The position numbers and the translations under genes were made by a program. 64,000 nucleotides of DNA, taken from Siniperca chuatsi (Eukaryota > Chordata > Actinopteri > Centrarchiformes > Sinipercidae). Numbering within the stretch: position 1 is the stretch's first letter; every line of letters starts with the position of its first letter. The stretch covers positions 4,354,333 to 4,418,332 of the forward strand of contig NC_058045.1 in assembly GCF_020085105.1 (NCBI RefSeq), in the 5' to 3' direction. This document shows positions 10,813 through 63,775 of the stretch, one piece after another. A model generated the notes under the pieces. The model worked only from the letters and a program-made list of their open reading frames with translations, searched no databases and was not told the DNA's origin.

Positions 10813-11160
10813 ATTTTGTCAAGTCTTGCTGCAAGCATGGAAGTTAGATGTTGCATATATTATTTTCATTGAGTATTGTAAATAGTGGACCCAAGCAAGA
10901 GAAGCTATTGCTGTAACAACAGCTAATGGGGACAACAACAATAAACGGGTGCTGGCTATCATGGAAGTTCTTATGTTACATGTGTAAGAGACACATCTGT
11001 AAGCTCTTTTCCCTAGGCCCCATATGTAGAAATATGGTCAACAGATAAGAGACAGAAACATGGCTATAGTCACTTAGGAGTCACTTAATCACTTGTATGT
11101 TCTTTGCCATAGTTCACTATACTAACTCCTGCCTCTGTCAGTTCAGGCTAGGGAAGAAAA

Positions 11161-12118
11161 CCTATTGATTACACCAGTTTCCATCCAGGGGGTCAGTGTG
11201 GACATTGTAGAGGACTACAAGTACCTGGGAGTACGCTTAGACAATAAACTGGACTGGGCTAAGAACACTCAAGCTCTGTACAGGAAGGGCCAGAGCCGCC
11301 TCCATTTTCTGAGGAGGCTGAGGTCCTTCAGCAACTGCCGGACAATGCTGAGGATGTTCTATGAGTCTGTGGTGGCCGGTGCTATCCTGTATGCTGTTGC
11401 ATGCTGGGGCAGCAGGCTGAGGGAAGTGGACGCCAACAGACTCAACAAACTGATCCGTAAGGCCGGTGACATTGTGGGGGTGGAGCTGGACTCTCTGGCG
11501 GTGGTGTCAGAGAGGAGGATGCTGGCCAAACTACACGCCATCTTGGACAGCGTCTCCCACCCGCTCCATGACGTGCTGGTCAAACAAAGGAGTATGTTCA
11601 GCGGAAGACTCATCCCCCCACAATGCACCACAGAGCGCCACAGGAAGTCACTCCTGCCTGTGGCCATCAGATTCTTTAACTCCTCCCTCTAACATCACTG
11701 AAATACCTGAAATATTGTGCAGTATTCTCTGTTTAATACTCCTGTGCAATTACTATGTTTTCTGTTTAATATTCCCTATTTATTAATATTTATTCATACT
11801 TATATTACTGCTGTGCAATATCCACCATCTAATAATCTGGTTAATCTGCTACATTTAACTTGACAGTACTCATTATTGCACTATTACTTATTACTTATAT
11901 TATTACATTGTATTATACCGTACATACTTATCAAACTGTAAATCCACTTTTGTACTTACATTTATTTTAGCTTTTATACTTATATCCACTTTGTCCTTAA
12001 TTTATCTTAGCTGTATTATATTTTGATTTGCTTAGTACTTCTATTCCTGTGTGCACTGACGTGATAGTAAGCAGCTGTAACGAAAGAGTTCAATAAAGTA
12101 TTTCTGATTCTGATATGG
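11161..12118 (+). mobile_element. 5'-truncated non-LTR retrotransposon (L2/jockey-like LINE), RT C-terminus plus 3' tail
   Basis: An open frame at 11165-11692 encodes the last 175 residues of a reverse-transcriptase polyprotein: DYKYLGVRLDNKLDW, LHFLRRLRSF, MFYESVVAGAILYAVACWG, CTTERHRKSLLPVAIRFFNSSL-type motifs. It is followed by an A+T-rich 3' UTR ending at about 12118 in TTCAATAAAGTATTTCTGATTCTGAT. The same C-terminus occurs on the minus strand at 41180-41527 and the same 3' tail at 40720-40815 and 62658-62765, so one LINE family has inserted here at least three times. The N-terminal endonuclease and most of the RT domain are missing, as expected of incomplete reverse transcription. The copy cannot be active. 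Confidence 0.85.
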
Positions 12119-23700: not shown

Positions 23701-27844
<4,144 letters not shown>

Positions 27845-31359: not shown

Positions 31360-35439
<4,080 letters not shown>

Positions 35440-40715: not shown

Positions 40716-41589
40716 TATCAGAATCAGAATCAGAAATACTTTATTGATCCCCGTAGGGAAACTCTTTGTTACAGTAGCTCGTCTTTACGTCAGTGCACAC
40801 AGGAGAAAGTACTAGAAAACGATATGATACACTATAAACACTATAAACAGGTCAGAAATAAATTAAGTATCATGTCGTTATAAGTATAAGATAAACTAAG
40901 TGTCAAGTACCAAGTGGGTTTACTGGTTGATGATGAAAGTACAGTCTAACACAATGTAACTCCTTATGTAATAAATAATATTAATAAGCGGGCGTGCATG
41001 TACTGTCGAAGAGTAATTGAGGTATATAGTATCAGTAGCAATAAATAAGAAAAACTAACAAGGGAAAACTAATATTGCACGTAAGTAGAACACAGAATAT
41101 TGCACAATTATTATTAATTATGGCGGAGATGTAATGCTAAATGTCCAGTTTAGTGACCTAGGGTCAAACAGACTAACCCTTAGAGGGAGGAGTTAAATAG
41201 TTTGATGGCCACAGGCAGGAGTGACTTCCTGTGGCGCTCTGTGGTGCTTTTTGGTGGTATGAGTCTTCCGCTGAAGGTGCTCCTTTGTTTGACCAGCACG
41301 TCATGGAGCGGGTGGGAGACACTGTCCAAGATGGCGTGTAGTTTGGCCAGCATCCTCCTCTCTGACACCACCGCCAGAGAGTCCAGCTCCACCCCCACAA
41401 TGTCACTGGCCTTGCAGATCAGTTTATTGAGTCTGTTGGCGTCCGCTACCTTTAGCCTGCTGCCCCAGCGTGCAACAGCAAACAGGATAGCACTGGCCAC
41501 CACAGACTCATAGAACATCTTCAGCATCGTCCGGCAGATGTTGAAGGATCTCAGATGTTGAAGGACCTCAGCAACAGATGTTGAAGGAC
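40716..41589 (-). mobile_element. Second LINE (L2/jockey-like), 5'-truncated, inserted in antisense
   Basis: The 3' tail is at the left (AGAATCAGAATCAGAAATAC, TTTATTGATCCCCG) and the RT C-terminus at 41180-41527 on the minus strand (MFYESVVASAILFAVARWG, DANRLNKLICKASDIVGVE, ERRMLAKLHAILDSVSHPLH, TTERHRKSLLPVAIKLFNSSL-type motifs). It is about 85 percent or more identical in protein to the copy at 11165-11692. Flanking CTCGACAACTGC (40704-40715) and CTCAACAACTAC (41590-41601) look like a target-site duplication with two mismatches. Near its 5' end a roughly 20-bp unit is present three times (41533-41589). Confidence 0.85.
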
Positions 41590-41746
41590 CTCAACAACTA
41601 CAGTTGTTTTTATTAGTCTTTTTACTATTATTATCATTGTTATTCCTATCACTATCATTCCTCTTATTATTATTTTATTAATATTACCACTACCATTACA
41701 CTATTATTATTTTAAAATTCTAGGTGGAACTTGCATTGTGCTTCCC

Positions 41747-43719: not shown

Positions 43720-46700
43720 TCAGGCCTCTATAGAAGTGGTGGGGTCGGGCTCGGTGAGAGTGGGGGCAATGAAGCTGACCCGGACTTCCCGGGTGTAAAA
43801 ACCCCGAAGAACCCCGTCCACAACAACATCTGGGAGGTCTGCAAGACAGAGCTCAGGCTTTATACTGTGTCGGCAAGGTTGTCATGCCTTTCAATGCTTT
43901 TCAATTCAAAGTTACAGAACCAAACAAGGAAATGCACACAAAAGTACGGAGTCAGTAGCTGTTTGTCAGTGTTGAAGCAGTCTGTTCTTTCCTACCTGAT
44001 GTGCAGTCAGAGAGATAAGGATCCTGAAAAAATCCCAACACTCGCTGATGTGGTAACTGATAACTGAGGAAACAAAGGCAAAATGTGATTGATTAGTCCA
44101 ACGCAACTGGAATGTTTCCTCAAACATCAAAATTATGTGTGGACCAATAATAACTTTTATCATTGGTGTGAAACACATTAGTATAACTGCACTAGCGCAC
44201 TGTGTCATTCAGTTATGTGCACATTCTGGTTCAGTTTGTGCCAGAAACATGATAAGGGGGCTGGGTGCTGACACAGATCTTTTAATGATATAAACAGGAC
44301 CGAGCCCGTCCTTAAGGGGGGAATGGAGTCAATCCAGCGCCCTGAGCTGGGGGGCGGCCCTAAAGTGCAACACACACTGACCGTGTTGTGAAGCGTCATG
44401 TCATTCGATGCAGGTAAATTAACGCCTGCAACACTCACCGGACAGGACAGATATGGACAGAAGAAGTCAAAAAATATGGCAGCCTGGATGTGTCGCTAGT
44501 GTGTCAGCTTACATAAAAAATAATACATGCAGGTGTTGCTCTTTACAGTGATTGTATATATATTTTAGTTTTTTTTCACGCCTCTTGGGTTTTGAATTAG
44601 GCTTTATATGAAACCTGCAGGACTCCAAAGAAATAAAATATTCTCAAAAGGTAAGATATAGCAAGTGTTATATTGTAGTCATTATAATGCATCTGTCATT
44701 ACTGAAATAATGGTGCTGTAGAGACAAGAAGAAAGTGGAGGCAACTCAGATTAATCTCCTGTGTACAGGGCTCAGTATTCATACAGTAGTAACATCCCTT
44801 CTAGTAGACACAGTACAGAAAAATGGGAAATGCTAGTAAAGATCTTACCTGTAATCCTGACTGTCCAATTCATCAAATGATCTGAAATTAGCATAAATAA
44901 GTATTACAGATTTCCTGTCAAAATAAAGGTTGCTATACATGTTTACAACTCTAAAGGCTACTCTATGGTACAGAAAGTAACTTCCTTTTGTTTATAGTTA
45001 CAATATTTTTTTATAAAGAGGATAATCCAACTTGCCCACATACTGTCCACTACTCTACAGAAAAAAACAAAGAGTAGCCTGGACTGAACTGAAGATTTAA
45101 ACCTACAACACTGAAAAAAACACACCCACAGGAGTACTGTTATGTTATGTATCTGTACATTTCTCCTTCCTTGATCATTAGCTATATTGCTATATTGTGG
45201 GTTAGTCAGTGCTGCTGCTCCACTCCACTGTGAGAAATGTGTTCAAAGTTTTTTATTATGTTGCTGCATTGCCCCCAATCCAAAAATAGAGGACCTAAAT
45301 ATAGCAACATGTCAGAGGTCTCTAGATGCAGTCACAGGAGTCCGGGCTGAAGGACTTACTCCATGCTGCTGATCTTGTTTCCTGTGTGAAAGTGTTTAAC
45401 ATGGAGGAAGTCCAGCAGCACCTGCGGCACGTCTTCATTTTGATAGATGATCTCCTGGCCAACAGAGAACAATCTAACTTGTAAAATGGTATTTTTGTCA
45501 AGCAAGATGTCAAAGCTTGTGCCTTTGAAGGTTTATGAATGAATAAACTGGACAAGGGGCAAAACACAAAACACATTTTCAATATACTGTACATCAGTGA
45601 AAATCGTATGTTTAAGATTAAAGTAAAATTCACTCTAAAATGTTTGTTTTGTGCAGTTACACTCCTTAATATAATAATACAAAATAATCACGTGTAGACT
45701 TTTGATATCATATGACTCTTTATTTTATTACTTACTTATTCTCTTATTTCTCCTTGTTTTATATGTTGCCTTCTCTATCTCCTTATTTTGCTTTTCTTAT
45801 TCCTGTAAAGCACTTTTTTTTTATAACTTCTGTTTTGAAAAGTTCTATATAAAGTAAGTTTGGTTGCTTGCTTACTGATGGCAGAAGGGGCAGTTCAGCA
45901 GGACAGAGGCTTGCTGCTAAAGGATATCGGATTGAAAGACGAGGGCTGACTCTGCGGGAACACCTGGATGTCTTACCTGGATGTAGTCTTCCAGCTCCTG
46001 CCTCCTCTGCTCCAGAGGTTTGGTCCTCAGATGGGTGTTCCTTTTGTTTGGGAAATCAGGAGTCTGGATGATTTTCCTGAGCTGCAGGTGACACGAGATA
46101 CAACATGAACCTTTAAATCACCTGTAATGAACAGGCCACGATGGCACACGACACATAAAATGGCCGAAATTAAAGCTACCTTGTGGAGTTTTTGACCACT
46201 AGTAGCGCTATAGAGCAATGTTTTATGAATGGGTCCCCTGTTTTGCACGTGTGAGCACGATTCACATCTTGCTGTTGGTTTCACACTATTCCACTGATTG
46301 TAAGCTGGAGGCAGTAATGTACCAAGAAACACAGCAATGCGCCAACAAAGGCAGGGAAGAAGAAGACTGCTAGCCAGCAAATATGGATGCAAACAATGCA
46401 CGATTCAAAATATTTGAAAAATTATCTTCGCAAAGAAGATCCTTGTTCACTACTACCTCAAGTTTTTGCACTACAACTTGCATATTACACTAATATTTGT
46501 GTATAATTTATATATATGTGTGTATGTATGTATATGTATGAAATTAGTTAGCCAATTCTCCGTATTATAATATCCATCTACAAATATTTCAATAAAATAA
46601 CTACAATTTTCAAATTTTCCTGTTTCTGTTTCCCCAAACATCACGGTTATTGTAAATTCCAATCACGATGGTTAGAATATATTAAATTTGAAGAATAGAA

Positions 46701-49700
46701 ATATTTTTGACCTCAAGTCGATGTGCAAAATTTTCGGAACTTTTCCTTATCTTGTTTCAAACCCCAATACATACATTCACAAATGCAAGAGACCATCAAA
46801 GTGAAGCTTCCTTGTGATTTTAAATTCATGTAACATGTCTTACTTTATGTTACAAAGAAATCAGTCATTCAGTAACACCGTATTAATCATATTAATTGTG
46901 ACTGTGGCTGTAAAGTAAGTTCTATATACATACTTTTCTGTGCAGAGTCTGGAATTCTCTGCTTCTTCTGAGCACAAAATGTTTCCTCCCGTTAAACAAG
47001 ACTTCAACTCGGAAAAGCTGCAAAGAAAAGACAGAGGGAGACACACAGAGGATTTATTCACAATCTGTCATTTAGTGAATTTAATGTTTGCCAGGTTGAA
47101 CATTTAAAGTGACCAGAAGTGTGTCATGCTTTTCAAAATGATGGTGAAAATAAACCCAATATATTTTTGCTTAATCATCAAGTTCATTCTTTAAACAGAC
47201 ATGGTTCAAGAAGGAATATCATTTAGTTTTTCCACTTTATAGTGTGTGTGTGTGTGCTGTAATATACATTTACCGCCACATTTAAAACAACATAATCCCA
47301 TCAGGTGAAGACAGACATTTGGCAACAATCAAATATATCAGGTATCCAACTATAAATGCAACTTTTTGTGCTGAACTAACAGCTTTAACTAATACTCTAG
47401 TACAGATTTCTCTCTAAATACCACATACAAGTTTGTCATACTGCTGAGCTAGTTTTTTGTAAAAAACAGTGTTATAAAGCCAATTTAAATTAATTTCAGA
47501 TTAAGGACTTTAATCATCTTGCAGCAAAAAAAAAAAAAAACATGTCTTGAGATTCTTACAATCATATTTAGCAATTCTGGGACCCATTTCAAACTCTGTG
47601 TTTTAGTGTGTTATTCCTTAGAAGTTTGCATCATGACACGACAACATCATTTCTCCACCAGGAAGAGGCACAGAGCGTCAGCTTTCATTCTCAAGAAATC
47701 CGTGTCAACAGAAGAAAGGCCTGTTTATTACAGCTATACACATGAATGACACAATCACTGCTGTTAGGTTCCTGTGATGTTGTGACACACTGCTGAAAAA
47801 CCAGTTTTAATACATATTTAATACCTAATAACACACGGCATGTATGCTAGGATGTACACTACTGTTTATCATGTCCGTGGGTTTACATGATTATTTCTGA
47901 TTTCTCAGGTGGTTATCCAGCATGGATTCTTCATTTTAAAACATTAAGATAATCATTGAGATATTACTTGTAATGGTTTACTGTAAACAAATCGCTGCAC
48001 TTTTATAATAACATCTTGGATTTTGAACAAACTGGCCAAAGACCTTTGTGATAAAACTAGTTTCAAAAAGGGTAAAAGCTTTGTCAGTAAACTTTAAGGT
48101 TCAGTGTCTGTGTTGTCTTTCAGTGAACCGCATTTGATCTGCAGGAGCTTTTGTTGTTTTCACAATAGAACTGGTCAAAGCATATAATTTAGGTTAAAAT
48201 AGTACAGTATTTCCCAGGCAGATGGGAAGAACCTCAGTTCTGCAAACATAACTCAACATTTATATTGATCAAGAAAATGGTTTCATGTCAAACTTGCGCA
48301 TCGCTGCGCCGTGAAAATACTAAATCTGAACACAGACTGAAATATTTTAACAATTCTTTTAAAGCAGACACTTTAGTTTAATGTCCTTATATACACTTAA
48401 GTTGACATTTATCTCAGCCTTCCCTCCTCTTGCAACAGATGCCCAATTAAAACCTTTTCAGACGACTGCAGTGCAACATCAGATGTATTTCATGCTGTCC
48501 TCACTTACAGATGAATGAATTGGGTGGCAAAAAAAAAAAAATCTAAACATAATAGAGAATAATCAGGAATAAAAACTAATGAAAAGAGCGTTGTGCTGCC
48601 GGGGGAAACTGAATACTTGAGGGTTTGTGCAGAACAAACTGCAGGATGTCGTCCTCGTACCGTTACAGCTGAACAAAAACCAAACTGAGGTCAGTTCAGC
48701 ACACTACAGCCCTTCCTCTTCTTCGTGAGTCAGCTGGAACAAATTCCCCAGGCTGGTGTCAATTTTTTTTACTATTTTAAAATGTAGGTGGGAATACGAT
48801 TTATTACAAATTCATAACTAGGTGACTGTTCTCTGGAAGTCTGTTCAATGCTAAGTTACACTTCAGCCCCATGCATTTAACTTGAGTTTATAATCACACC
48901 AATAAACAAGCATCGCAGAAAGGTTTAGTAATACATTAACAGAGTTTAGACACCATATTTGTTCATTTTACCCTGTGCCTTCCCTTAATAAGCCTTTAAA
49001 CAGGATGCACCCAAGTCTGTGGTTCCCACTGTAGGGTACTGTGTGTCAGAGTGTGTGTGTGTGTATTCAGGCAGAGGGGGGAACGTCAGTATAATGTCAC
49101 CAATGTTTTACAGCTTTCTGCACTAATTAGTGTTTGAAAAGGGAGCAAAATAACATTATATACCCAACTACAGAAAACCTTCTCAGACAAAGGTCACAGG
49201 TAAAGAAACATTTTGAAATGATGTATATTATGGCCCTTAGATACTTGAGTACATTTACTAAGGTACAGTTTTAAAATATTTTCCATAACTATTTCTATCT
49301 TGTGAGACTATGTACTTTTACTTAAGTGCGTTTTAGATGAATATTATCTGACAAATGTACCACTTTGGTTCACTGTTTATTTAAACTGGTCAGCAGTGTA
49401 CAGTCCTATCTAGAGCCAGTGACTGGTTTGTCCGTTCTGGGCTACTGTAGAAACATGGCGGTGCAACATGGCGGCCTCCGTGGAAGGGGACCCGCTCTCT
49501 CTGCAGAGACAAACGGCTTATTCTAAGGTAATGAAAACACAACGATTCTTATTTTCAGGTGATTATAGACTAATGAAAACATACTTATAAATATTATATT
49601 CCATTTCTGCCAACAGCTCCTCCTAAATGTGACACACTGGACCTTTAAGTAAAAGTACTAATACCACACTGTGAAAATACTACAAGGAAAAGTCCTGCAT

Positions 49701-51518
49701 TCAAAACTTTACTTAAGTAAAAGTATGTTAGTATTCTTAGCAAAATTTACATAAAGTACCAAAAGTAAAAGTACTCATTCTGCAGTAAAATGGTCCCTGT
49801 CAGTGTTTTACTGTTATATCTGATGTTCCTGGATTAATATTACTGCTGCATGCTTAATGCTTAATGTTGCATTTTACTGCTCTAGTTGTTTAAGGTTGAG
49901 CTCATTTTAACTACTTTATATACTGTTGGGTAGTTTCATCTACAGCAATGCATCATGGTCTAAAAGATCATCAATTTTGTAGCGTCGCTGTCCTGTGAGA
50001 ACCACGTATCTCTAAAAAGTCAACTTTTCATGAGCTCAGAAAAACAGCCCTGTTTTCAGCTTTGTGCTGATGCATTTTCCAGCTGATCCAACTGGGGTTC
50101 AATTGTTTATATAGCTTAAGAAGTAAGTTTTTCTCAACCCATAAATGAACACTTCATCCTTCAGTTTATCAGAAAAATTCAAAATCACAGAATTTGGAGA
50201 TACATGGTTTTCACTGGACAGGAAGGGTATGAAAAGTTGTAATCTTAAAAGTAACTAAAGCTGTCAGACAAATGTAGAGGAGTAAAAAGTAGAATATTTG
50301 CCTCTGAGATGTAGCGGAGTAGAAGTACAATCTTGAGCTTCCATTTTATGCTACATTATACTTCTACTCCGCTACATCTCAGAGAGAAATATTGTACTTT
50401 TTACTCCATTGCATTACTTTTACTTTTGATCCTTTAAATACATTTTGCTGACAGTAATTTCTGTACTTGCAATTATGTATGAATGCAGGACTTTTACTTG
50501 GAATTGAGTAACTGCTGTATTGTTACTTTAACTTAAGTAACAGAATACTTCTTCTACCATAGGAAGTACTTTGAGTACACGGTTTCCTCCTCCTGCTCAA
50601 ATGCATGCCTGGAGGTGTGTGAGCAACTGAGGTCATGCGTGTAAATATATTTACAACAAAGTCCATATTACGTCTCCGTGTAGAAAGTCTTCAAAGTTCA
50701 GTTTTGAAGTACTTGTACTCCACTATATTTCAGAGGACAATATTGTACTTTTTACTCCACTACTTTTTTGACAGCTAAAGTTAATAATTACTTTTTAGTT
50801 TAAGATTTTACACACTAAAACATATGATGACATCATAAAAATGTGATATTGTTGAATTGTTACAGATTCAACTACCCAAAAGTATATAAAATGTATGTAT
50901 GTTAAAATGAGCTCCACCTCACCAACTGCAACAATAAAGTACTGCTTACATGTTGATGCATCAATAATAAGATCCAGTCATATAAAAGAATAACCTGACA
51001 GGGCCCATTCTGTATAATGAGTACTTTTACTTTTGATATTTGAAGTACATTTTGTTGCCAATTCTTCTGAACTTCTAGTTAGTAGAATTTTGAATGCAGA
51101 ACTTTTACCCGTAATGGAGTATTTACACAGTGGGGTATTGCTACTTTTACTCACTAAATTATCTGAATACTTCTTCCACCACTGAAACTTTTGCTAAGCA
51201 AAATTCAAATGCAAAAGTTCATTTTTATATTGATAGATTTAAAAGATGTGAGGTTTTTTCTTGCACCTCTGGATAGAAACCGGAGAAAGGCTGTGCTGAC
51301 TCACTTTCACTCTTCCTGCAGGTTACCTGGCTCACCTGGCGTCGCAGGTCACCTTTACTGCCAAACTATAAAGATGAGGTATAATAACACTGCAAAAAAC
51401 CAAAACAAGAGGTAGTTATGGAGGAATTATAAGTTAAAGTGTTTTTACGTCCTCACCTTTTTGGATTTTCCCGACTCATCCACCTCCTCTGCATCGATGG
51501 TATCGACACTTCAATCAT
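43720..51518 (-). CDS. snx22: Sorting nexin 22 (PX domain), apparently frameshifted in exon 1
   Basis: Exons on the minus strand are 51457-51518, 46934-47017, 45977-46081, 45360-45454, 44849-44881, 43996-44063 and 43720-43838, about 188 codons (human SNX22, 193 aa). Exon 1 begins MIEVSIPS, like human MLEVHIPSV. Later exons give FRVEVLFNGRKHF, TPDFPNKR, LEQRRQELEDYIQ, LLDFLHVKHF, VLGFFQDPYLSD and LPDVVVDGVLRGFY, the SNX22/SNX24 PX domain and tail. Exons 2-7 are mutually in phase. Exon 1 is not: the start frame reads IPSMQRRW and runs into TGA at the junction, whereas the acidic DAEEVDESGKSKK needed to join exon 2 is in another frame, consistent with one missing base or 3n+1 missing bases. The invariant PX motif R-R-Y-S-E-F reads R-R-S-R-E-F, losing the Tyr. 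PX proteins bind phosphatidylinositol 3-phosphate on endosomes. Possible pseudogene, sequence error or strain allele. Confidence 0.88.
49235..51185. repeat. Cluster of direct and inverted 'CAGTGGTGGAA' repeats
   Basis: Successive segments show the family's blocks. There is a fragment at about 49235-49360. A forward copy lies at about 49645-50335 (AAGTAAAAGTACTAATACCAC ... TGTAGCGGAGTAGAAGTAC). A reverse half lies at about 50340-50570 and a nearly complete reverse copy at about 50705-51185, which starts GTACTTGTACTCCACTATATTTC and ends ACTTCTTCCACCACTG. The arrangement creates long inverted repeats. Confidence 0.8.
50279..50407. repeat. Near-perfect inverted repeat (49-bp arms, 31-bp loop)
   Basis: Bases 50279-50327 are the reverse complement of 50359-50407 with three mismatches in 49. 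Both arms contain CTGAGATGTAGCGGAGTAGA or its complement. It arises where a forward and a reverse copy of the same repeat meet end to end. Confidence 0.9.
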
Positions 51519-55711: not shown

Positions 55712-55905
55712 TCATACCTTTCTAGATACTTTTCTAAAATTTCCCAAATTTTCTTAATAACTGGCAATAATTAAATTAACCACGATAACACAAACCTAAA
55801 GTGGCTCTCAAACAAAAGGCCAGCCTTGGTAGAATTACAAGTATACTGTTTGATATTTTTAATATGACAAATGGATTTAAACTTTTACATTGCAGTTTTT
55901 CAAGT

Positions 55906-58900
55906 CTAAAGCTTCCTGGAAACTGCAGAGTGAATGATGTCTTCCAAACTGTCCACCTGAAAGAAAGAGCAAGAGAGACAGTTTGCCCTGTGTACAGTGT
56001 ACTAATTGTTTTACCCTACACTGATTTGTTTTCTTCTACTCCTCTTCTCACTCATACATTTTCTAAAATGTGATAGAAAATCGCTATCTTGAATCTCATC
56101 TTTGCTTCTCTGGGTCTTTGTTCCAATGACTGGCTGATGCTTCAGAAACCCTGTACCAGAGCAGATCTATAAAGAATGCTTTTACTTTTAGCGCTCTGCA
56201 AAGCCACCTGGCCAAAATAAATCACTTACACTCTCTGTAACAGCAAGACCTTTCTCAATAGCTGTCTTATAGCCTGCCTGTAACTACTTGTTTGCTTTGC
56301 TGTAAAATAGCTTGTATGCTCAGCAAACCTCATTGAAACCTCAAGAATAAATACATGAATAATAAATAAAACAAATGAATATATGCATGTGGTTAGGTAA
56401 TTTAGGTGTTTTGCAATAGGTGCCATGTAGAATATCACATAGGCCACCTCAGTTTTACCTGCTTGCCTTCACCCACACTGAGGTTCTTGAGCTGGTAGAC
56501 AGTTACTCGTCCATCACTATCCCCTACCAGGACACAGTCTGTCCCTCTGGCAAACAGCAGGAACGTCACGTCCACACCAGGAACAGCATGGTGCACAATG
56601 GTTGGGTTCAGGCTAAAAGGAGAGGTTTATATTTAGTGAACACAGGATTATTTCTGGCTCATGTTTCAAATCAGATAAAAACATTAAATGAAAGTGAACG
56701 AGACAGAGATGGAAACTCACATGCTTGAATTCAGATCCCAGATCTCCACCTGTCGTCCATTAATGGCTGCAAATATTGTGGACCAGTTTGGGGACCACCT
56801 GACGGCATACACGGCCCTCTGGGTGGATGTGAAGCTCAACACAGGTGTTAAGCGGTCCTGCTTCCACAGCTGGATGGTCCAGTCAGAGGAGCAGCTCAGG
56901 AACACATCAGAACAAAATGGAGACCACTCAACGTGGTTCACAGGGCACTGAGAGAGGGAGCAAGATGTGATATGGAGTGAGTATACTGCAATAACCGCTA
57001 TATTTTTACAATTTTTTTATCTTTGGCTCCTTTTAAATAATTTTAAATCAAATTGTAGTAAATGGATAGCTGCATCACTGAAGTCAACACAACAGGCCGC
57101 TAGTCTTTTGTGTTACACAGATATTGCTGAAAACCACTCTTATCATAGAGAGGTATTGGAATACACATTTCAAATATCATTGATTAGGTTTTATCCAGAA
57201 AGACTTACAAAGTGCTTTTGGTAAGTGTCCAGAAAATGCTGACTGTTGGAGACGGAGCACTTGTGGACGAGGCCCTCCCATGTACCAGTCAGATAGATAC
57301 TGGAGTCCTGCAGGATAAGAGCAAACCAGGAGAAATGTGTGATGTATTTTGAAGTCAGAGTCAGAGAAACGTAATGTTGACCCTGTGAATACTGACTGCC
57401 TAGATGAAAGAACAGCTTCACAGCCAGGTGAAAATGTTATTTTTTCCCCACAGAAATAAGCTTTTTAGCCTGAGGACTAGTCTCAGTTAAAACCAGCCTA
57501 GAATCAACTTGATTTCTGTGGCCAACTCACTATTGGATGGAAGTCAACACAAAGACCAGGACTCATTGCTGACAGAACACTTTCTGTCGTCTTCTTGTTT
57601 CCTGCAGCCTTCTTCTTACAATTCTGACTCCTCTTTAGCTTCATCAGGTCTGAGAACAGATGTTTTAGAAAAGCTACATAAATTATGATTATTGTGTTAG
57701 AGCACTGCTATACAGGGTTAACCTGTAAATAATTTACATGAGCATTCTCACAGTAAATTAACTGTGGAAAAACATAACTAAACTTGGTGGTATTTTGTGT
57801 TGCCAATTGCCTTTAAGGGCATAATGAATAGGATTTTCCTAAAAAAAAATAGACTCATGCAAAAATAATCCCTCTCAATCATCGCTTATGACTAGGGATT
57901 GGACAATATATGATTTTATTGCGGGCTGGGATAAAAAAACACTCAAGATAAGATGATTGCGGTGAATTTCCATTATTGGGATAATTGGGAATCGGAGTAA
58001 TCGGGAATATGCTCACGAGTGACTTGAAAAGCCCAAAGCCAGTTGGACTTTATTTTTGTTAAAGGATCATTCCTGTATTTCTTAAGTCAGGGGTAAATAT
58101 ACTGATGCAATTGATGAAATTGTCGTCTGTACCATTTGACATCATGGTAGAGAAGTGAAAAATAAGAGCCTGATTTAAAAAATACAGGAATTATCATGTA
58201 AAACTCACACACTGTTGCTATTTTTACATTATTTATTTACTCTTTATTTATGCAGGGGGACCTTATCATTTATGATTACCTTATTTAAGATTGTTTGATT
58301 GTTTGTTTTTCACTAAAAAGAATGCTCACTAAAAAGCTGTGTATCCTATCTGTGATGCAAAAAAAATATTTATTTCTTAACAAAATGTAAGGTAAAGTGA
58401 TTCCAGCAGGTTTTAGTGCTTAAGTGCTTTAAGAGTTTTAAACATATTTTGATGATTATTGGGATAATGTCGTGAATATTTTCATTTCCTATAACCTACT
58501 TATGACCCACTGGAAGTGTATGGCGGTGTCTGTATCTACAGACCCGACTGTCTGCCTGTATTTTCTTATTATTTTGCTGTGTTCGGGGCATTTCTGGGTG
58601 CCAACCTTTGGGCAGCACGCAGGGTGTGAGGTCGGGACTCTATAAAAACGCAGTGACGGCCTGTGTGTATTTCTCTGATTCACTGCTTTGTTCTCGCTAA
58701 CGCTGCTCCCTCTCTTCATTCACTCCCTAGCTTGCTTGACCACTGCTCCTCTCTCTCTCGCTCGTTGAGCTGGGGAGGGAGGCCAACATTGAATCGTGTG
58801 TTTACAAACAGCAACCAACAAATCCTACTCATTACGCCTTTAAAGTTCCAAAGTGGTAAAAATAATTAACCAACATTTTTTTTTATTATTATTCATTGGA

Positions 58901-61900
58901 AAGGTTATTATATAAAGTCATTTTCAAGTGATAGAATTGATAGAGATTTGTTGTTTCCCTGCCTTTTAAACTCAAAGCTCATCTGAGCATGTTTTGCTAA
59001 TCAATGATCAAAAATAAAATTCAAAATGAAATGTTTTGTGAAATCATAGCCTCTGCAACAGGCTATGATTTCACAAAACATTTCACCACAGTACCTATGC
59101 AGTCAAGACCATTGCTGCAGAGGCGCCACTTGGTAATCCTGCCATCTGCCGACACAGAGACGAGAGCTTCCACCCTCTCCTCCCCTGATAATCTCATCTC
59201 TTGTTTGGTCCAGCTGACCTGCCACACTGGATGCAGGTGCTTTTTGGAACACTCACTACAAAACAAAAATATTAGGGTCCAGTAGTCATCGTTTTTCTTC
59301 AACATGTGATGTGAGAGTTTATTTTCATGTCCACACACACACACACATACAGTCCTAACCTGCTGTTGGCAATACATGCCTTGTTGTTTCGACTCTGGAC
59401 ATTGTAGATGGCTATAGTGCCATCGTACAGCCCCACAGCCAGCTGGCCAGGGTTGTTGGCTGAGAAATCAAGGGATGTCACACAACTGTGACAGTGGAAG
59501 TAAAGCTCCGGCCACTGCCCAGGGGACACATTTAGAATCAGTCACTCCCAAAATAACTTCACTGGTAAATGGGCACTTTAGTACTTTACAACTATGTGAA
59601 CATGAAAAGCCACCCGCCAACCCTGCGATCAGTGGATGACCCGCTCTACCTCCCGAGCTACATCACAGCCATGAATTCAATATTTACTTTTTTAATTAAC
59701 ATTTTTTTAACACACAATAGACAAAAGCTTTTCTAATATGTCCTATTACCACTCAATTTTGGTTGTACTAGCAAGTTGAGACAGAGCACTGGAAGATGAT
59801 GGCTAAAGGGAGATAAAGGGCAAAAAAATTATAAATATACCGTAGGGTTTTTGAGGGACCAGCAGCAGATCAAACCTGGTTTCTGGTTCCTGGAGTCATA
59901 GTCACTGTAGCCCACGGCCAGGAGATCCTTACAGAGAGTACAGAGCACAAACAGACCTGTACAAGAAGCATTCATTCAACAACTTTTTAAACAAAGACTA
60001 GTAACAGAAGAACCTTAAAAAAGTAAATGTTTGCCCATTAGAATTCTAAGTAGCTGTATTGAATGTTGCTTATGAAGGCAGTTCAGGCAACTTCAACACT
60101 GAACAAAGAAAACAACACAAAATGACAATGACGGTGTTGTGTAGAATCTGTTCGGCTCTGTTCTGGTCTTTGGCCTGTGTTACCGGGTTCTCCTTGTTCC
60201 AGGCCATGCTGGTAATGCTGCATCGTCTGGTGAGCTCGCAACTGAAATCCCAGAGGCGTTCCAGAGTTGGAGATGAAGAGCTCTCCTCACCCTCATCACT
60301 CTGTTCCTCAGTCCCAGGCTTCACCATGGTGTCAGGGTCTAACACAATCAACATTACTACACTGTATACAGTATTTATTCAAATACACTTACATTTTATA
60401 ACTGAGCAAATTTTTTGTTGAAGCAGAAAGGACAAAGGCCCTAAGTTTAAGTCCACGGGCTGATGCACCTGCACCAACAATATAAGAAAGCAGTGATAAC
60501 CTGAGCTTACCTTCAAGTATGGGCAGCTGTCTATAAGCAGCCAGCTTGGGTTGAAAGATGTTTGCAACGATGCTTCTCTCCATTACTAATAAGCTTTGTT
60601 GGAATGACTCTGACAACATAATCAGCTGTGGGTTGGGCTCAGCCTTTGAACTGTTCCCACATATTTCCACTTCTAACAGTGAGCTAATGGTACTGTCTGA
60701 GGAAATGAAATATAAGAAAATGCGTGTTATTGCAAAATAAGCTTTAATAAACAGCAAAAAATGATATATCTGTCAGAATATATATAGGATCTAATACTAA
60801 GAATAGCTTGAGAACAGACATGTTGGTTTATTTTAACAATATTCTCCAGTCTAAAAGACTTGCTTGTCAATGTTCTCCCAGTTACTGTTACCTGTGCTGA
60901 CTGTGCTGCTGCTGCTCTTCTCTCCTTTCTTCTCTTGACCTTTGCTGATGTTCACAATACTCTCTGGATTGTCAGCCTTCTCACTTTTAGGGGTTTCATT
61001 TTGGTCACAGAAAGAGTCATAGATGTCCCAGAGAGTAGCATTCGTATCTGTGGACATGAGAGACTTTGAACTAACTGTCCACTTTGATAATAACCCTGCA
61101 CCAAAGCATTGGTTCCATCTAGATACCTTGGAAAAACCTTGGTGGATTGTGATGCAACAGTCTGAGCTTGGAAAGCTACAACTACAACAAATCTGACATC
61201 TGAAATGATAACAATTGATTATCACATTAAGTTTGAGGTGTTTCTTTTCACTAAAACAGACCTGAACTTAGAGAATTAAGAGAGAATTAAGTTTAGACTT
61301 TGAAATAAATGTCATTTTTTTAACCAGTGCCTTACTATCAAGTTTACATGTGTTTAATTATTGAGGCTTCAACATCAGACAAAACCTTTGAGTTACATTG
61401 TAAGCTTAAGGTTTAAGTAAAAGTAAAAGTAAAGTCTACTTGAGAAACAAACATTACCAAAAAACAGTACACAAAGAGGATAATTAAGCCTAACCTTTAT
61501 CCACCATGACAATCGCGTCACTCTGGCTCTGTTTGTTTTTAGGTGCTCCATCGAATGTCTGCATTGATCGTACCACATACTTATCATTGCCCATTATGTT
61601 CTTGCAAAGTTCAGCATAGTGAATGTTTTTCTCTCTGTAAGAACAAGGTGAAAATGTCAGCTTGTCACAACCAAAGAGTCACTGGCTGGCATGTTTGCAC
61701 AGAACATAAACTAACGTACATCTTCACACATACTCTACAGTGTGTGACAGGCGGTTCCCAAGTTAAATACATAAAGTACCACTTCCTATGCCTGCTGCTA
61801 TGCATTTCAGATCTTGCCTAATAATATTTAAGGGAACCAACAAGAAGAGGACTTTACTCACTTAATAGCTTGTGCATCATCAGCATCCTTTGACACAAAG

Positions 61901-63775
61901 GTGCTGGGTATGTCCAGCAGTGAAATGGTATCTGTCTCAGAGAGGCAGATATCTACTACCTCATTCAACATCTCTTCTGTCACATGTTGTTTCACAGTGT
62001 CTCGTTTCCTAGGTACCTCTGGCAGGGAACAAAAGACAAAAAACAATATATAAAAAATGAATATACATGTATAAAATACATATAAAAAGAAAATCTGCAG
62101 CAAAAATGTAATTTCATCATAATAAGATGCTGTAGATTTAAGTGTATTCTGCTGCTAATGGCAATATTTTATTGCATATAACAATGTAACACTGTATTGT
62201 CAATAAATTATCATACTATACATATTAAAGACTAACTTTAAACAATGGAGGATATGATTATCACCAGGAGGAAACAGTGATAATAATAAACATAATGACT
62301 ATATATATATTAAAAGAATAGTAACCGCATAGAGCTGGGGGGTTTATTGGTGTGTCCAGTTTAGGAACACCGTCCTCAGTCTCCTTAGTCAGTGACGCTT
62401 TAGACAGGCTGGATGGTCGACTGCTCCCCATAAATGAGCTGCAAAACAATGTCATTATTGAGTTACTGAGTACATTTTTGTGGTCAGAAATATGTGGCTA
62501 TGTTTGATCTAACAAGCCAAAAATGTAACACACAGTCATCATATGTAATAAAAGAAAATTTGCAAAACATAACCATATCCATATATATATATATACATAT
62601 ATATATGAACAATACATCTGTACACAAGACTACTGAGTAGTGGATTTGTTCATATTTAATCAGAATCAGAATCAGAAATACTTTATTGATCCCCGAGGGG
62701 AAAGTCTTTTGTTACAGCAGCTCACTATCACATCAGTGCACACAGGAATAGAAGTACTGGTGGTAAGGTAAAATGTTGCTTTACTCAGTTTTTTCCTGAA
62801 TTCAAGTTGTACCACAACAAATGGGCTGCACACCTTCCACAAAACCCTTCTCAAATCAGATCCACACCTGCTGTTTGATCTTCAAATCAGAAGGTGTATA
62901 TGAATGTTACCACCTGGTACCTGGTAGAGGGCACATTGAAGCTTGCAGTGGATTTCAAGTAGTCTGATCCTGAGCTGGAAAACATTTCATCCAGAAATAA
63001 TCTGTCTGGTTTGGACTGCGTGTCTCCTGGCTCTGCGTGATACAGGGACAGAGGAGCGACGTTATTGCCGGTTTCATCCAACACCTGCAAAGACGGGAAC
63101 CACAGCCAGAATCAGTTAAGCATTTACTCTATATTTTCCTTTTACTTATTGTTTACCTGTATAATATTTTTTACTATAATTGTTATTCTTATTTTTATTA
63201 TTACTTATTTGTTGATTTAAATATAAGGCTAAACTTGAATGTTTATTTACACAACAATGCATCAAGTAGGTAGCTGCTGAACTATTGAAGGATGTCTCTG
63301 TTTGTTAATATCATTAAACAAATTACAAAAAAAGAGGGGACCATCACTAACTACAATTTTACTATTGTGACAGGAAATGAGATGTTTAAGAATACATTTA
63401 GCCTATTAAGATGAAATAGATACCCGAACTACTCTGGGAGCTTGATTGGCTCTCCTAAGTTTGCTGTTGCTGCCACCGACCAGGATGGGACTTATTTGGG
63501 TTTGTGAACCTGTGCAGCTCCTGTGTATTGAACTTTGACTGACTGGGTGAATTCCTGAATTATTCATTGCTCGAGAAGATCTAGGAGAAAGCAAAATAAC
63601 ATTAAAACATTAAAATAACAGGTAGGCTAAAATAGCCACCACTAGCTTAGGTAAGCTAACTAGCTTATGCCTTTCTCTTCAGCTAAAACACCGGGTGTTG
63701 AAAAAAAAAATCACTTGTTGTGAAATTATTAACTTACGAACTAGTTTTCTTCATTTTTTCCCCAGGGGTCCACAT
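55906..63775 (-). CDS. dnai4: Axonemal dynein intermediate chain 4 (WD-repeat protein 78)
   Basis: Seventeen coding exons on the minus strand: 63738-63775, 63424-63580, 62921-63084, 62326-62438, 61862-62018, 61495-61634, 60892-61047, 60511-60696, 60184-60338, 59841-59927, 59360-59514, 59095-59255, 57531-57649, 57209-57307, 56721-56947, 56459-56612 and 55906-55956. Phases close perfectly to 772 residues plus stop (human about 850). The N-terminal half is Ser-rich and partly disordered, with the conserved ETDTISLLDIPS and SMQTFDGAPKNK stretches. The C-terminal half (about 390-756) carries WD repeats: AWNKENPDLLAVGY, DFSANNPGQLAVGLYDGTIAIYN, VSVSADGRITKW, FLSCSSDWTIQLW, VRWSPNWSTIFAAINGRQVEIWDL and DCVLVGDSDGRVTVY. 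DNAI4 takes part in building single-headed inner-arm dynein f in motile cilia. Wdr63/dnai3 is the nearest alternative, but the motifs fit dnai4 better. Confidence 0.88.
57890..58060 (+). repeat. Degraded 'GGGCTGGGCGATATGG'-like repeat in dnai4 intron 12
   Basis: ACTAGGGATTGGACAATATATG followed by GGGCTGGGATAAAAAAACACTC resembles the start of the MITE at 21028. It lies in the 1.4 kb intron between exons 12 and 13 (57650-59094), whose other sequence shows no exon. Confidence 0.35.
59331..59346 (+). repeat. (AC)n microsatellite in dnai4 intron 11
   Basis: A run of eight CA repeats, 14 bp beyond the splice donor of exon 11. Confidence 0.8.
62658..62765 (-). mobile_element. LINE 3' tail fragment in dnai4 intron 3
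   Basis: It starts CAGAATCAGAATCAGAAATA, then CTTTATTGATCCCCGAGGGG and TTTTGTTACAGCAGCTCAC, and continues CACAGGAATAGAAGTACT. It is the same tail as at 40720-40815 (reverse) and 12030-12118 (forward). Only the last 108 bp of the element is present. Confidence 0.85.

Follow-up and report, generated by a model that had tools for sequence, protein, structure and literature searches.

Gene content of the locus

The minus strand of the window (the whole stretch of 64,000 nucleotides that was analysed) carries snx22, a small gene of membrane trafficking, which has seven exons, six GT-AG introns and a coding sum of 566 nt; the genome is probably that of a fish. Its exons, and those of the syntenic neighbour that served as a control, are placed as follows.

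51457..51518, minus strand: coding part of snx22 exon 1, 62 nt, running from the ATG at 51518 to the donor; its head resembles that of human SNX22
46934..47017, minus strand: snx22 exon 2, 84 nt, start of the PX domain, beginning with LF
45977..46081, minus strand: snx22 exon 3, 105 nt
45360..45454, minus strand: snx22 exon 4, 95 nt
44849..44881, minus strand: snx22 exon 5, 33 nt
43996..44063, minus strand: snx22 exon 6, 68 nt
43720..43838, minus strand: snx22 exon 7, 119 nt, TGA stop included
23704..27844, minus strand: ppib, five coding exons (span of the tblastn matches)

Exons 2-7 form a single open frame, joined at five canonical GT-AG junctions that are all in phase, and inspection of these exons (504 nt of coding sequence) revealed no stop, frameshift or broken splice site. 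Their frame encodes a PX domain (PF00787, E 8.9e-9, 36.2 bits against a cut-off of 21.6).

Upstream of snx22, at about 55900-63600 on the minus strand, lies a relative of dynein axonemal intermediate chain 4 (dnai4), with 8j07_k2 as its best match. Elsewhere in the window, 11126-11689 on the plus strand and 41183-41590 on the minus strand encode similar peptides, which by eye resemble the tail part of a reverse transcriptase of LINE type.

Identity and copy number

The best solved relatives of the protein encoded by exons 2-7 are human SNX22, a PX-only sorting nexin (PDB 2ETT, 102.2 bits), and human SNX24 (98.4 bits), and the PX region shares 47 of 85 residues with the former and 45 of 85 with the latter. 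The assignment to snx22 rests mainly on synteny with ppib, whose human counterpart PPIB adjoins SNX22, and on the presence of snx24 as a distinct gene elsewhere in the same genome, on contig C18.

A 241-nt query covering the exon 1 region matches the 718.8 Mb assembly once. With the exon 2-7 protein as query, six genomic matches were obtained from nine scored candidates: five fall within snx22 (E 1.1e-17 to 4.6e-8) and the sixth (E 0.28) is exon 2 of snx24, so that no second snx22 copy is present among the scored candidates, which are the best ones of the genome search. As assembled, and among these best scored candidates, the disabling lesion described below is thus present in a single-copy orthologue. 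Searches for relatives of the same protein gave 5 pattern matches in viral contigs and 105 in prokaryote genome contigs, none of them confirmed in either set, as expected for a vertebrate gene.

The start codon and the PX domain lie in different frames

The snx22 start codon is out of frame with the PX domain. The frame that it opens enters exon 2 one step off and, in the spliced message, runs into an early stop.

46027..46029, minus strand: TGA in exon 3, codon 67, first stop of the snx22 ATG frame in the spliced message

The product of the ATG frame matched no Pfam family at E 0.001. The PX frame, for its part, has no AUG in exons 1-3, and its first AUG lies in exon 4, behind the part of the domain that is matched by Pfam. 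The exon 3 TGA (46029-46027) sits 249 nt upstream of the last snx22 exon junction; messages with a stop at that distance are expected to decay, and decay would therefore be expected of the snx22 message.

A sequence-only reading of this DNA had already described much of this conflict. Translation of the spliced frame bears out its claim that the exon 1 ATG gives MIEVSIPS and diverges thereafter, the human SNX22 head being MLEVHIPS (in part also visible in the structure match). The PX-matching frame of exon 1 has, as it had stated, a TGA upstream, close to where the exon begins, and lacks an ATG; its exon total of 566 nt, one short of a multiple of three, was re-derived, and the in-phase state that it ascribed to all other junctions was found at five of five from exon 2 to exon 7. 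It had erred in having the ATG frame meet a TGA at the splice junction: that TGA is intronic, and the spliced frame stops at 46029 in exon 3.

The paralogue snx24 provides an internal control for the affected junction. Its exon 1 measures 69 nt (MHPVRVSIPSFRSENNSIERGYT, then gtaagc) and ends in phase 0, and its exon 2 measures 84 nt, begins with VF and also ends in phase 0. The second exons of the two genes have the same length and begin at the same position in the alignment (VF in snx24, LF in snx22), and a phase-0 end is therefore expected for snx22 exon 1, from which its 62 nt depart. That we have misread an exon boundary or the identity of the gene, and that there is no frame conflict at all, is accordingly very improbable. 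The shortness of exon 1, and nothing else, speaks for such a misreading; against it stand the phase and position of the same junction in snx24, the strong donor of snx22 exon 1 (AAG/GTGAGG, score 7.1) and the distance from MIEVSIPS to exon 2, which is similar to that between the snx24 head and its exon 2.

Alternative splice sites and first exons

The frame conflict would vanish if snx22 still worked by way of a first exon that has escaped annotation, a different splice site or initiation at a non-AUG codon of the PX frame. The intact exons 2-7 can still be recognised as PX, which suggests that selection acted on snx22 until recently, and both alternative promoters and multi-exon leaders are compatible with the sequence. 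The enumerated sites point the other way. Five GT sites lie between the ATG and the end of exon 1, only one of which is in phase 0, with a score of -4.1 where the real donor reaches 7.1; the donor at 51336 is strong (score 7.2) and in phase 0 but stands behind an in-frame stop. Acceptors were scanned from 120 nt before exon 2 to 80 nt inside it, and all those in this stretch that restore the phase lie at least 32 nt into PX coding sequence. Acceptors inside exon 1 have at most 10 pyrimidines out of 20.

The search for new first exons covered single first exons, starting at 55950, close to where dnai4 ends on its 3' side, and going down to exon 2. At a donor score of at least 2 it gave three phase-0 ATG-to-donor candidates, none of them resembling the head of a sorting nexin, with 5 and 7 candidates in the other two phases, exon 1 itself among them. 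The phase-0 count depends on the donor cut-off, rising from none at 5 to two at 3.5 and three at 2. Donors were scored with a simple matrix, under which two real snx22 donors reach just 2.1 and 1.9, so that weak real exons could be missed. None of the enumerated donors, acceptors and ATG-to-donor candidates is convincing as an alternative splice site or as a single first exon, and we regard a functional gene of this concealed kind as unlikely.

Nature and place of the indel

There is good support for an indel that shifts the frame within snx22 exon 1. A net loss of 3n+1 bases and a net gain of 3n+2 bases fit equally, and the deletion of 1 or 3n+1 bases proposed by the sequence-only reading is thus sound as far as the loss goes and too narrow in admitting deletions only. 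The same reading had placed the lesion at 51480-51500 on the strength of an expected acidic linker. In global alignments the acidic linker scores 3 against human SNX22 and 1 against human SNX24, and the linker of the ATG frame scores 0 against both; between 29% and 53% of shuffles reach each of these four scores. Similarity to the human proteins accordingly failed as a means of telling the two candidate linkers apart, and the narrower site is not established. Because the linkers score no better than shuffles, the indel is to be sought anywhere from about codon 8 to the exon end, an interval that includes two short homopolymers.

51458..51469, minus strand: runs A4 (51466-51469) and A5 (51458-51462) at the end of snx22 exon 1, possible site of the indel or of a consensus error

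These runs bear on whether the lesion exists outside the assembly. There is a substantial possibility that the true gene is intact and that exon 1 is 3n+1 or 3n+2 bases too short or too long through a consensus or assembly error: snx22 is otherwise intact, with one small indel as its sole defect, and the A4 and A5 runs fall inside the interval in which that indel may lie. The runs are short, however, and the adjoining ppib is in phase at all four of its junctions. The assembly is also contiguous (718.8 Mb in 65 contigs), although contiguity is a poor gauge of base accuracy and says little on this point.

Two further neighbours were joined less completely. For adpgk, the script joined three of five junctions; at the second, the only GT donor that it offered left extra residues in a poor join, and a clean join is obtained with a GC donor, and at the third it found no join, where a weak GT donor would fit by eye. 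For dnai4, three of four junctions were joined in phase (from six anchor pairs for four junctions), and the one leading from SADGRITKW to CPVNHVEW was not joined, probably through the absence of an exon from the pieces used.

The adpgk gene, on the minus strand, has an apparent GC-AG intron (AAG/GCAAGA) that runs from the donor at 33776 to the exon start at 33659. The exon before this intron matches ADPGK of PDB 5ccf.

Conservation of the PX domain

Conservation is lower in the PX domain of snx22 than in that of its paralogue. Identity with the human orthologue is 47/85 for snx22 and 68/85 for snx24 of the same genome. At the 48 PX positions that are identical in human SNX22 and SNX24, snx22 keeps 33 residues and snx24 keeps 44 (Fisher p 0.009), in a comparison of two human sequences with two from the genome of the window that cannot separate faster functional evolution from relaxed constraint. 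The shared residues lost in snx22 include the Y and S of RRYSEF and the W of the loop that follows.

The R/K-R-Y-S-E-F motif common to human SNX22 (RRYSEF) and human SNX24 (KRYSEF) is kept in snx24 of the same genome and is absent from snx22, where exon 2 reads RRSREF at 46952-46969 on the minus strand. The tyrosine of the PX motif packs on the lipid. A study of PX domains describes a canonical site that binds PtdIns3P through an arginine and a lysine, and lists SNX22 among the domains that prefer PtdIns(3,4)P2 (PMC6449406).

Discussion

The explanation that we prefer, and hold tentatively, is that the snx22 frameshift is a real loss-of-function lesion of recent origin, either segregating or fixed, in a gene under weak constraint. 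A small indel in exon 1, somewhere past about codon 8, would have left exons 2-7 untouched, and a message initiated at the ATG would be a target of nonsense-mediated decay and would encode 66 residues, with no PX domain among them. The lower conservation of snx22 relative to snx24, together with the lack of a second copy among the scored candidates, points slightly towards a genuine lesion in such a gene. Intact exons 2-7 argue against old decay: the other 504 nt hold no second lesion and their splice sites are intact, and any decay of snx22 can therefore not be old. Of the three possibilities that the sequence-only reading had left standing, namely decay, an allele or an assembly error, old decay is the one opposed by the state of exons 2-7, and the exon 1 indel common to its proposal is supported by the phase-0 exon 1 of snx24.

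A more far-reaching version, that this lineage recently lost snx22 once the gene's lipid-binding motif had already changed, and that snx22 stands at the beginning of a lineage-specific loss in which snx24 is left to take over, strikes us as doubtful.

If the lesion is real, it would represent one more natural knockout of the sorting nexin SNX22, and it might reveal in vivo whether SNX24 is able to stand in for SNX22. Should the frameshift be a consensus error, it matters for annotation alone. A review calls the function of SNX22 'almost completely unknown' (PMC8280035). Among the matches listed in literature searches that combined snx22 with fish, teleost and pseudogene, the titles and abstract openings contain no report of snx22 loss in fish. 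The frameshift itself is nothing out of the ordinary: it would be a broken allele or a slip of sequencing, and no new kind of feature.

Among known systems, the real lesion that we prefer is closest to a unitary pseudogene or a loss-of-function frameshift allele, with which snx22 shares a frame-disrupting indel near the start and no second copy found. It differs from a unitary pseudogene in having one lesion only, which could be a consensus error; further stops, frameshifts and splice lesions are absent from exons 2-7, which carry only amino-acid changes, at positions where human SNX22 and SNX24 agree. Human SNX22 (PDB 2ETT) is the best solved relative, and the gene shares with it the ppib neighbour and a similar head. 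It differs from human SNX22 in that its ATG frame disagrees with its PX frame, in the change from RRYSEF to RRSREF, and in the replacement of NW in the following loop by HL. To snx24 of the same genome it is alike in the 84-nt exon 2, in the residue at which that exon starts and in the phase-0 end expected of exon 1, whereas in snx24 the 69-nt exon 1 is in phase and the KRYSEF motif has been kept.
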